Positions 95 to 4,218 of a DNA stretch of 50,507 nt are shown in pieces. Source of the DNA: Azospirillum sp. (GTDB lineage Bacteria > Pseudomonadota > Alphaproteobacteria > CACIAM-22H2). The DNA lies in the NCBI GenBank assembly GCA_020249045.1, contig JADCGK010000098.1, forward strand, positions 1-50,507, read 5' to 3'. Position 1 is the first letter of the stretch. Each line of letters begins with the position of its first letter. The translations under genes and the position numbers were made by a program. The notes under the pieces were generated by a model, which made no database searches, was not told the DNA's origin, and saw only the letters and a program-made list of their open reading frames with translations.

Positions 95-1633
95 TCACCC
101 CGTCTGTCCAAGCCCGTGCGTGCGCGCGAGATAACCGCCGAGGACGGCCTGCTCGGCGAGCGACAAGTGCAACCCCGTCTTCGTGCGCCGGAACAACACG
201 TCGTTGGCGGTGCGCGCCCATTCCTCGCGGACCATCAGATCGACCTCCGCACCGTAGAGCCCCGCGCCGAAATGCGGGCCGAGCCCGTCGAGGGTTTTCG
301 CCTTGTCGAGGAAGCCGAGCGCGCGCGCCCCTTGGCGGCGCAAGATCGCGCGCAGGTGGTCGGGCGGCACGAAGGCGTAGGTCTTCGCGCACGCGGCGAA
401 AAACCGCTCGAAATCCGAATCCCGGCCGTCGAGCGCGCCGCCGGGCAGTTTCGCGCCCGCCGTCCAAGCGCCCTTTGCGCCGGGGAAGAACGGCGCGAGC
501 TTCTCCATCGCGTGTTCGGCCAAGCGCCGGAAGGTCGTGATCTTGCCGCCGAAGATCGACAAGGCCGGCGCGCGGTCGGCGCCCGCGTCGAGTTCGAGCA
601 CGTAATCGCGCGTGACCTCGCTCGCGTTGTCCGCTCCGTCGTCGTAAAGCGGCCGGACGCCCGCGTAGCTCCAAACCACGTCGGCTTGCGTGACCGGCTT
701 GGCGAGGAAGCGGTTCGCCGCCTTGCACAGATAGTCGGTCTCCTCGGCCGAGATCGCCACGCGCCCCGGATCGCCCTCGTAGACCACGTCGGTCGTGCCG
801 ATCAGCGTGAAGCGCCCCTCATAGGGGATGACGAACACGATGCGCCGGTCTTCGTTCTGCAGGATGAAGGCGTGCTCGCCCTCGTACTGGCGCGCGACAA
901 CGATGTGGCTGCCTTTGACGAGTTTCAGCTTGGCCGGCGCGTTCTGGCCCATCACGCCGGTGATCGTGGACATCACCCACGGCCCCGCGGCGTTGACGAG
1001 CGCCTTTGCGCGCACGTCGGATTTGTGTCCCGACAGACGATCGGACAGGGTGGCCCGCCATTCGCCGTTTTCGCGCCGTGCCGCGGCCACTTGCGTGCGC
1101 ACGCGGATCTCCGCCCCCAGATCGGCCGCGTGCCGTGCGTTCAACGCGACCAGGCGCGCGTCGTCGACCCAGCAATCGGAATAGACGAAGCCGACGGGCA
1201 CGTCCGCGCGCAGGCCGCGGCCGTAGTCGCTGCGCGGCAGATCGACTTTGGTCGAGCCCGGCAGGCGCGATTTTCGTCCCGGCGTCCAACCCAGGTGATC
1301 GTAGAGGAAAAGTCCCGCGCGGATCATCCAAACCGGGCGCAGCGAGGCGTCGTGCGGCAGGACGAAACGCATGGGCCAGACGATATGCGGCGCGCAGTCG
1401 AGCAGCACGTCGCGTTCGGCGAGCGCTTCGCGCACCAACCGGAACTCGTAATGCTCGAGATACCGCAAGCCGCCGTGGATCAGCTTGGACGAGGCCGAGG
1501 ACGTCGCCGAGGCGAGGTCGTTCTGTTCGGCAAGCAGGACTTTGAGGCCGCGGCCCGCGGCGTCGCGGGCGATACCGCAGCCGTTGACGCCGCCGCCGAC
1601 GATCAGAAGGTCGTAAACGGGTGATTCGGACAT
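95..1633 (-). CDS. glpD: Aerobic glycerol-3-phosphate dehydrogenase
   Basis: The 512-residue product has the usual length for GlpD. It begins with the FAD-binding dinucleotide fold (DLLIVGGGVNGCGIARDAA, residues about 9-27), followed by the family stretch SSASSKLIHGGLRYLE (about 46-61) and a central segment with GTTDVVYEGDP that is characteristic of GlpD. GlpD oxidises sn-glycerol-3-phosphate to dihydroxyacetone phosphate at the cytoplasmic membrane and passes electrons to ubiquinone. No glpFK genes are adjacent; the only partner is the dehydrogenase fragment downstream. The ATG at the complement of 1631-1633 is the natural start because the FAD fold follows directly. Confidence 0.95.
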   Translation of the reverse strand: MSESPVYDLLIVGGGVNGCGIARDAAGRGLKVLLAEQNDLASATSSASSKLIHGGLRYLEHYEFRLVREALAERDVLLDCAPHIVWPMRFVLPHDASLRPVWMIRAGLFLYDHLGWTPGRKSRLPGSTKVDLPRSDYGRGLRADVPVGFVYSDCWVDDARLVALNARHAADLGAEIRVRTQVAAARRENGEWRATLSDRLSGHKSDVRAKALVNAAGPWVMSTITGVMGQNAPAKLKLVKGSHIVVARQYEGEHAFILQNEDRRIVFVIPYEGRFTLIGTTDVVYEGDPGRVAISAEETDYLCKAANRFLAKPVTQADVVWSYAGVRPLYDDGADNASEVTRDYVLELDAGADRAPALSIFGGKITTFRRLAEHAMEKLAPFFPGAKGAWTAGAKLPGGALDGRDSDFERFFAACAKTYAFVPPDHLRAILRRQGARALGFLDKAKTLDGLGPHFGAGLYGAEVDLMVREEWARTANDVLFRRTKTGLHLSLAEQAVLGGYLARTHGLGQTG

Positions 1634-1743
1634 GACGGCGGGAGAATAGCCCGCAGTTCAGCAGCAAGACGAGACTGTTATTCGATCAAAGCTGTGGTTT
1701 ATCGACGTCAGGCAGCGGCAAAAGTGCGCAACGCTGGCACAAA

Positions 1744-2166
1744 TCACCCGTTTTCATTCAGTTGCTTCATTGCGAGCTCGTGCCTCCGCGCGCGCTCATT
1801 TTCCGATATTGCTGCTTCCCGGCCGATGTGGGATTCCACGAACTTGGAATTGGAGCCCATGGCATACATCTTCGCGACAGCTCCAAACGTAAAAAGTAAA
1901 ATGCTTGCTAATACACAAATCAAAAAATCAATACTAGAGAACTCGAGTTTGAGCAGAGAAGCCACGACCTTCATGGTCCCCGCATAAATCAGCAACATGA
2001 ATGCAGCGATATGAAGAACAACGCCGCCTTTTTTATCAGCTAAACGAGAAGAAATATCAACTAACCTCTCGGTTATATGCAGTGCTTGTTTAACCGTCAC
2101 TGAAGCAACGTCAGTTGCGGCTGAGTTTACGGGTTTTGAGGTTGTCGTGTTAGAAACATCTGTCAT
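1744..2166 (-). CDS. AT-rich orphan two-helix membrane protein
   Basis: I do not recognise this 140-residue protein. A Thr/Ser/Val-rich N-terminus of about 50 residues is followed by two hydrophobic segments (about 49-74 and 78-104) and a charged C-terminal helix rich in Glu, Arg and Lys, so it is probably an inner-membrane protein. Base use is clearly unlike the neighbours: bases 1861-1920 contain 23 G/C of 60, while flanking genes are strongly GC-rich and use GC-ending codons. A near-consensus promoter sits directly upstream and the ATG lies where transcription should begin, so the mRNA may be leaderless. Both facts suggest recent acquisition. An internal GTG start is possible. Function unknown. 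Confidence 0.7.
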   Translation of the reverse strand: MTDVSNTTTSKPVNSAATDVASVTVKQALHITERLVDISSRLADKKGGVVLHIAAFMLLIYAGTMKVVASLLKLEFSSIDFLICVLASILLFTFGAVAKMYAMGSNSKFVESHIGREAAISENERARRHELAMKQLNENG

Positions 2167-2172
2167 ATTAAT

Positions 2173-2201
2173 TTTATATAATGAAAAACCTTTATTGTCA
2201 A
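2173..2201 (-). promoter_or_regulatory. Consensus sigma-70 promoter of the AT-rich gene
   Basis: On the minus strand TTGACA (2196-2201) is followed by a 17-base spacer and TATAAA (2173-2178). Only six bases separate the -10 box from the ATG (A at 2166), so the predicted transcription start coincides with the start codon and leaves no room for a Shine-Dalgarno sequence. It is among the best-matching promoters in the window. Confidence 0.65.
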
Positions 2202-2208
2202 TTATGTT

Positions 2209-2529
2209 TTAGCGTCGCGTAAAACCGGCGTCGGTCAGGCAAGCTGCAAGCGACGCGTCGCGCGCGCGGATCCGCGCGGCAAGCCGCGCATAGGCGGCAT
2301 CCGCGTCGCGCTGGCACGCGTCGCGCGCGATCGTCGAGATTTCGCCGCCGCAGGGGCGCGGCAGCGGCGCTGGCGGTCCCGCCGCGTCTTCGGCCCGCGC
2401 TTCGCACGCCGCGCGCGCGCTTTGAGCTTGCGGACCGCCCAGCGTCGGGTGGACCCATTCGGGCTCGGTGCTCGCGCAACCCGCCAGCAGCGGGATCAGA
2501 AGACCGAAAACTTTCCGCATTCTCGCCAT
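2209..2529 (-). CDS. Small lipoprotein with W-x-HP-x-L motif
   Basis: The 106-residue protein begins with a lipoprotein signal peptide ending in LLAGC (Cys at about residue 18). The mature part starts EPEWVHPTLGG and ends CLTDAGFTRR, with two further Cys between (about 42 and 60). I do not recognise the family. The lipoprotein at 3610-3960 has the same plan: lipobox, W-x-HP-x-L, an alanine-rich stretch with a Cys, and a terminal CL-x(3)-GF. The two therefore look like diverged paralogues on either side of the LpxR-like gene. It is divergent from the LpxR-like gene, with about 50 bases between starts. A start four codons later is also possible. Confidence 0.7.
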   Translation of the reverse strand: MARMRKVFGLLIPLLAGCASTEPEWVHPTLGGPQAQSARAACEARAEDAAGPPAPLPRPCGGEISTIARDACQRDADAAYARLAARIRARDASLAACLTDAGFTRR

Positions 2530-2578
2530 GCGGGCATCATGCTAGCGCGTTCTCCTGCGCTCGGATATGAGCGGAAGC

Positions 2579-3616
2579 ATGAAATCGATCCGGTTCCTGG
2601 TCTTCGGCATCGCGTGTGCGTTCGCGGCCCCGGCGGCGGGGCGCGATGCGACCCCCGTTTGGGACTGGCGCGGCACCTATTCGATCCTGGTCGAGAACGA
2701 CAAATTCAATTCCTGGGATCAAGGCAAGCAGACCGATCGGAACTTCACCAACGGCCTGCGGATCAACTGGATGTCCGAACCGGGCCTGCGCTGGGAACCG
2801 CTGAAGGCGCTCGCCGCATGGGTGCCGGTGTTCGACGCTTCGGGCAAGACGCGCGCGGGGTTCGCGCTCGGGCAAAACATTTATACGCCCGAAGATATTT
2901 CGCGCCGCGATCTGGTGCGCACCGACCGGCCTTATTCGGGTTGGACTTATCTGGCTGCGGCGCTGACGTCGGATTTGGGCGGCGAGGGCAAAGGTCGGCT
3001 GGATACGCTCGAGTTGCAACTCGGCCTCGTCGGTCCGCAAAGCTTCGCCGAGCAGACCCAGAAGGAATGGCACAAGCTGATCGGCGCGCGGCCGCCGTTG
3101 GGCTGGAACAATCAATTGCGCAACGAGCCGGGCGTCGCATTGTTCTACGAACGCAAATGGCGGCGCCAGGAAACGCCGATCGCCAGGATCGGATGGTTGG
3201 AAATCGACGCCACGCCGCATATCGGCGGGTCGGTCGGAAACGTGTTCACCTACGCCGCCGCCGGCGCCACGTTCCGGATCGGCAACGACCTTTCCGTCGA
3301 TTACGGCCCGCCGCGCATCCGACCGGGGCTGGCGGGATCGATGCACATCGATCCGCCGGCCGACGGGTTCGCGTACTACGCCTTTTTCGGGTTCGAGGGG
3401 CGGGCGGTCGCACGTGACATCACGCTCGACGGCAACACTCTGGCGCGCAGCCATTCGGTCGATCGGCGGCCCTTGGTCGGCGATCTGCAAATGGGCGTGG
3501 CCGCGTTGGTGGGGCCGATGCGCGGCACCTTCAGCTATGTGATGCGCACGCGCGAATTCGACGGCCAACGCAGCCCCGACCGCTTCGGCGCCTTGTCGAT
3601 TTCGTATCGCTATTGA
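2579..3616 (+). CDS. lpxR: Lipid A deacylase LpxR family protein (DUF2219)
   Basis: The product has about 345 residues, with a signal peptide (MKSIRFLVFGIACAFAAPAAG) and a predicted outer-membrane beta-barrel. LpxR removes the 3'-acyloxyacyl group of lipid A in a Ca2+-dependent reaction. The residues known from Salmonella LpxR can be placed: Asn-Asp in VENDKF (about 39-43), Thr in FTNGLR (about 56-61), Gln and His in QKEWHKLIG, and the family stretch WNNQLRNEP. The enzyme may therefore be active. I chose the second ATG (2579) because it gives a canonical signal peptide; an in-frame ATG at 2567 adds four residues. The stop overlaps the stop of the convergent lipoprotein gene by 7 bases. Confidence 0.85.
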   Translation: MKSIRFLVFGIACAFAAPAAGRDATPVWDWRGTYSILVENDKFNSWDQGKQTDRNFTNGLRINWMSEPGLRWEPLKALAAWVPVFDASGKTRAGFALGQNIYTPEDISRRDLVRTDRPYSGWTYLAAALTSDLGGEGKGRLDTLELQLGLVGPQSFAEQTQKEWHKLIGARPPLGWNNQLRNEPGVALFYERKWRRQETPIARIGWLEIDATPHIGGSVGNVFTYAAAGATFRIGNDLSVDYGPPRIRPGLAGSMHIDPPADGFAYYAFFGFEGRAVARDITLDGNTLARSHSVDRRPLVGDLQMGVAALVGPMRGTFSYVMRTREFDGQRSPDRFGALSISYRY

Positions 3617-3960
3617 GGGACGGGAACGAGCCGGAAGCCCTTGTTGCGCAGACAGAAATCGCGCAAGCGCATCTCGTCGAACCAAGTGTCGTTGAACGAT
3701 GGCCGCGCGGACCACGGATCGTAGGCGTAAAGCCGCCCATCGCGTCCGCGCAGGTAACTCGGCCGCGACCAGCGGTTCATCCATGCGCGCGATTGCGCTT
3801 CCGACCACGCTTGCCGGCCGCAATCGGCATATTCGGCCCCGGCTTCGGCGTCGGACAATGACGGGTGCTGCCAACGCAGCGCCGGCCCGCATGCGGCGAG
3901 CGATAAAAGGGCGGCGAGGGCGAGGATGCGGCGCAAGTTGGGTCCCGTTCGCGCCGACAA
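3610..3960 (-). CDS. Small lipoprotein, paralogue-like to the one at 2209-2529
   Basis: About 116 residues with a signal peptide ending in LSLAACG, so a lipid-anchored protein is expected. The mature part contains WQHPSLSDAEAG, a Cys at about 47, an aromatic and Arg-rich middle (SRPSYLRGRDGRLYAYDPW), and the end CLRNKGFRLVPVPQ. It resembles the 2209-2529 lipoprotein in the W-x-HP-x-L and CL-x(3)-GF motifs but has the extra tyrosine-rich middle. No ATG is available; the longest form starts with TTG at 3960, and a TTG at 3936 would give a more typical short signal peptide. It converges on the LpxR-like gene with a 7-base overlap. Family and function are unknown to me. Confidence 0.65.
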   Translation of the reverse strand: MSARTGPNLRRILALAALLSLAACGPALRWQHPSLSDAEAGAEYADCGRQAWSEAQSRAWMNRWSRPSYLRGRDGRLYAYDPWSARPSFNDTWFDEMRLRDFCLRNKGFRLVPVPQ

Positions 3961-4003: not shown

Positions 4004-4078
4004 TGGCTCCCTGGGCAAGATTCGAACTTGCGACCAGCCGATTAACAGTCGGCTGCTCTACCGCTGAGCTACCAGGGA
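4004..4078 (-). tRNA. tRNA-Asn (GTT)
   Basis: The reverse complement folds as a full cloverleaf. The acceptor arms TCCCTGG/CCAGGGA pair perfectly, the anticodon loop CTGTTAA carries GTT, the T-arm contains GTTCGAATC, the discriminator base is G, and CCA is encoded. It lies 65 bases downstream of tRNA-Cys on the same strand. Asn-tRNA here is probably made by tRNA-dependent amidation, given the features of AspRS at 18594. Confidence 0.97.
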
Positions 4079-4143: not shown

Positions 4144-4218
4144 TGGAGGCCGAGGGCGGAATCGAACCGCCGTATATCGGATTTGCAATCCGATGCATTA
4201 CCACTTTGCTACTCGGCC
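4144..4218 (-). tRNA. tRNA-Cys (GCA)
   Basis: The reverse complement gives a perfect acceptor stem GGCCGAG/CTCGGCC, anticodon GCA in the loop TTGCAAA, T-arm GTTCGATTC, discriminator T and an encoded CCA end. A good promoter lies just upstream (4235-4263). Confidence 0.97.

Follow-up and report, generated by a model that had tools for sequence, protein, structure and literature searches.

In a genome of the same genus as Tagaea sp. CACIAM 22H2 (Alphaproteobacteria), comparison with close relatives shows that DNA with a consensus promoter sequence and a compositionally foreign open reading frame has been inserted, in this lineage, between the gene for a small lipoprotein and glpD. The whole stretch of DNA analysed, called the window here, is 50.5 kb long; its relevant features are:

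95 to 1633, minus strand: glpD, encoding an FAD-dependent glycerol-3-phosphate dehydrogenase, the downstream neighbour
1634 to 1680, minus strand: presumed ancestral glpD leader, with GGCTATTCT in common with congener G008 and GGCTAATCT present in G009 (compared by eye)
1680 to 2208, no strand assigned: inserted DNA, approximate, absent from congeners
1744 to 2166, minus strand: coding sequence of the orphan gene, 140 amino acids, ATG start
2173 to 2201, minus strand: sigma-70 consensus promoter TTGACA-N17-TATAAA, by sequence match
2209 to 2529, minus strand: small lipoprotein gene, the upstream neighbour, on the same strand as the orphan gene
2567 to 3616, plus strand: gene for an LpxR family outer-membrane protein (Pfam PF09982, E 2.7e-97), adjoining the lipoprotein gene
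4004 to 4078 and 4144 to 4218, minus strand: tRNA-Asn and tRNA-Cys genes

Here, 575 nt separate the lipoprotein gene from glpD; in each of the eight congeners with both genes (G001, G002, G003, G004, G006, G008, G009 and G010), the distance is 9–42 nt and no gene lies between them. Since the neighbours adjoin in every one of these relatives, the insert looks like a recent single-gene acquisition, and the simplest history would be one gain in this Tagaea lineage. The original prediction had proposed a recently gained gene with a strong promoter of its own, and a comparison of the locus in related strains; the empty site, together with the failure to find a convincing copy among 60 further related genomes, supports such a gain. 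The last ~40 nt before glpD resemble the leaders of G008 and G009, and the inserted part therefore probably spans about 1680–2208. These limits are inexact, the low end lying at ~1660–1740 and the high end no more than a few nt from 2208. G007 (74% complete) contains neither the lipoprotein gene nor glpD. In G005 (C50, L038), there is no match to the lipoprotein, and a different small gene, the product of which begins MSGPVFTLKISADEAKLM, takes its place upstream of glpD; gene content upstream of glpD thus varies. Separately, a small lipoprotein-like open reading frame without Pfam match is present at 3610–3960 on the minus strand. Its W-x-HP-x-L motif, RWQHPSLS, resembles EWVHPTLG of the lipoprotein upstream of glpD, of which it is perhaps a paralogue.

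The surroundings of the orphan gene are the most AT-rich place of the window, as had been predicted. The 420-bp segment at 1801 has a GC content of 41.4%, 6.5 standard deviations below the window mean (67.4%, standard deviation 4.0%), and the next lowest stretch elsewhere, near 22.76 kb, has 53.8%. The coding sequence itself has 45.6% GC and a GC3 of 47.5%; the GC3 values of the glpD, lipoprotein and LpxR genes are 86.7%, 75.7% and 81.1%, respectively. The AT-richness is graded and greatest on the 5' side, with 14% GC in the 42 nt from the lipoprotein stop codon to the orphan ATG, 42% in codons 1–100, 54.5% in codons 101–141 and 54.5% in the 110-nt 3' flank. When the 575-nt gap was shuffled 2000 times by dinucleotides, an open reading frame as long as the 140-codon gene arose in 7 of the shuffles.

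The promoter sequence consists of TTGACA (2201–2196), a 17-nt spacer and TATAAA (2178–2173), followed by ATTAAT and the ATG, so that TATAAA ends 6 nt 5' of the start codon. The −35 element is full consensus and the −10 element matches it at five of six positions; a generic promoter scanner missed the site because it requires T as the sixth base of the −10 element. A genome-wide pattern search for TTGACA-N16-18-TATAAW returned this as the single site in the 3.87-Mb genome, the expectation from base composition being 0.07 per genome and ~0.002 per insert. No Shine-Dalgarno sequence is present in the 20 nt 5' of the orphan ATG, the only similar motif being an AAGG at −26 to −23. The original description of a promoter six bases before the ATG, lacking a Shine-Dalgarno sequence, is accurate. 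Transcription usually starts some 7 nt past the −10 element, which, with the geometry described, puts the predicted +1 at the A of the ATG (2166) or immediately beside it. The natural reading of this geometry and of the missing Shine-Dalgarno sequence is that the orphan mRNA would be leaderless. Such an mRNA would be unsurprising, because leaderless transcripts are common enough in Alphaproteobacteria: 119 are reported for Zymomonas mobilis (PMC7566282), and rnTrpL of Sinorhizobium meliloti is a translated leaderless mRNA (PMC10117765). As in these examples, the start is predicted at the AUG, with no Shine-Dalgarno sequence; unlike them, the orphan case is predicted only, and its promoter is of the E. 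coli consensus type and unique in the genome. In some Alphaproteobacteria, MucR/Ros is reported to keep the expression of acquired AT-rich genes in balance (PMC8857273). It was not found in the host genome, and nothing thus suggests silencing of the orphan gene by that route.

Homologues of the orphan protein were sought widely. There were none in about 22–23 further genomes of the family and order, and none convincing in samples of 385 genomes of the class and 398 of the phylum. The class sample gave one 27%-identity match inside an 880-amino-acid frame, at E=8e-4 per genome, which is near chance for 385 genomes, and the phylum sample a single match, interrupted by a stop codon (E=1.4e-3). 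Searches of 50,697 phage and 72,556 plasmid records returned nothing at E<=1, no PHROG matched, and nothing real was found in IMG/VR (three scans) or GTDB r220; these last scans reach close relatives only, because they require an exact 8-residue seed. Two IMG/VR loci (L169 and L170) were discarded as spurious, since their exact ENERARRH seed is in a frame antisense to a longer open reading frame. Nothing convincing was present in PDB sequences, Pfam or NCBIfam, the weak profile matches being to DUF6264 (E 0.09), TrbF (E 0.029) and PycTM. Within the collections searched, the gene is thus an orphan as first described, and the suggestion that it came perhaps from a phage or plasmid gains no support from them.

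The insert showed no integrase, no terminal repeats and no convincing duplication of the target, nor do its ends take the insertion sequence form of terminal inverted repeats with a target duplication; no integron attC was seen by eye. Direct repeats of 8 bp at 1707 and 2234, considered as possible mobile-element ends, are within chance. The tRNA genes, of a class that frequently serves as integration sites, are ~2 kb from the insert. An exact 12-nt inverted repeat pairs 1615–1626, in glpD codons 3–7, with 1742–1753, at the orphan stop codon. It could form an RNA stem in read-through transcripts but may well be a chance match and was not retained, as 1.3% of randomly chosen sites in the window perform equally well; its predicted pairing varies with the length folded. 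Rfam gave no match.

The orphan protein contains two hydrophobic stretches by hydropathy, at residues ~47–71 and 79–104, matching the two-helix membrane protein originally predicted. In an AlphaFold single-sequence model, a helix at residues 14–43 is followed by a transmembrane helix (46–73) and then by another, which extends into a long, charged C-terminal helix (79–139). The model is poor (pLDDT 64, pTM 0.26); its overall arrangement agrees with the hydropathy, and its details are untrustworthy. A fold search with it against viral structures was uninformative, with a best E of 2.9. Most likely, to judge from hydropathy and model, the product is an inner-membrane hairpin with both ends cytoplasmic and a long C-terminal helix, the net charges (+1 for the N-terminal part, 0 for the loop and +1 for the C-terminal part) giving weak support for this topology.

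Several other explanations may be weighed against acquisition of a foreign gene expressed from its own promoter. Most expression of the orphan gene could come from transcripts that read through from the lipoprotein gene, which ends 42 nt upstream on the same strand; the orphan leader would then be AU-rich and lack a Shine-Dalgarno sequence, and the promoter-like site would be a by-product of AT-rich foreign DNA, in which spurious promoters are known (PMC7229825). We regard this as rather unlikely, given a full −35 element, a 17-nt spacer and a five-of-six −10 element placed exactly for a start at the AUG, and the very low number of such sites expected in the insert. An origin of the gene de novo from non-coding DNA of this lineage would fit the failure to find a homologue in any collection and the lack of mobile-element marks. 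However, the composition of the insert is not that of the host, no similar DNA is present elsewhere in the genome or family, and a local source is lacking, because congeners hold just 9–42 nt at the site, making such an origin very improbable. That the insert is an assembly chimera is, in our estimation, extremely improbable: the assembly is a draft of 255 contigs and the insert occurs in no other genome, but it sits well within one 50-kb contig, flanked to left and right by intact host genes in the order of the relatives, and two joins would be needed.

The profile match to PycTM was examined further because the Pycsar defence system uses PycTM proteins as its membrane effectors, and the orphan protein could be a reduced Pycsar-type transmembrane effector or a similar two-helix abortive-infection effector. 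The PADLOC model matches residues 41–112, over the first two transmembrane helices of the family (PF18967, PDLC02365), at E=0.0012 and 17.2 bits; ten segment-wise shuffles of the orphan protein gave no match to the library, and its LADKKGG resembles the ADQKAxxL that precedes the first transmembrane helix in the family. Nevertheless, a profile built from 27 PycTM proteins gives the orphan protein 3.8 bits and the best of 2000 shuffles 14.5 bits, and the Pfam PycTM model matches neither the orphan protein nor anything else in this genome. The orphan protein lacks the additional hydrophobic stretch that the retrieved family members carry at the C terminus, and the flanking genes, for the lipoprotein and glpD, include no cyclase. 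With a shuffle control that outscored it, a curated cut-off that was not reached and no adjacent pyrimidine cyclase gene, the assignment was rejected, and an effector of this kind appears improbable.

The best explanation remains the insertion of ~530 nt of AT-richer foreign DNA, with one complete gene and its own promoter. From its geometry, this promoter would start the mRNA at the AUG, yielding a leaderless transcript made constitutively, and the product, the predicted inner-membrane hairpin, would act alone as an accessory membrane protein, in the manner of moron products. It may block phage DNA entry or otherwise alter the envelope, which is the weakest step; a phage-exclusion or similar accessory function is a guess from layout and topology. 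Taken as one explanation, from foreign insertion and leaderless constitutive expression to membrane hairpin and moron-like role, we give it an even chance of being right.

Accessory (moron) loci are highly expressed during lysogeny (PMC7067206). Like those of phages and prophages, the present locus consists of one gene of deviating composition with its own promoter (by sequence match only), absent from the same place in relatives and lying between genes that adjoin there. Unlike them, it is chromosomal, with glpD, the lipoprotein gene and lpxR on its flanks, no prophage genes identified around it and no phage homologue; no terminator-like site follows the orphan stop codon on its strand. Its likeness to morons is one of layout only. 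There is a slim chance that the locus is a self-contained mobile unit of one gene that brings its own leaderless promoter with it; the product would then represent a new family of two-helix membrane proteins, acting against phages or as an inhibitor. If so, it would be expressible in a new host, needing neither a local promoter nor a Shine-Dalgarno sequence.

Single-gene acquisition is known from many bacteria, and much of bacterial accessory genomes consists of single genes whose composition is foreign and for which no relatives are known. The orphan locus is a clean example of this common phenomenon. Its significance is modest, as it is a single example with no homologues. On the question of how such acquired genes gain expression in a new host, the clean empty site in eight relatives and the promoter with its full-consensus −35 element at the start codon make the orphan gene suitable for a direct test of whether leaderless promoters aid the immediate expression of acquired genes.
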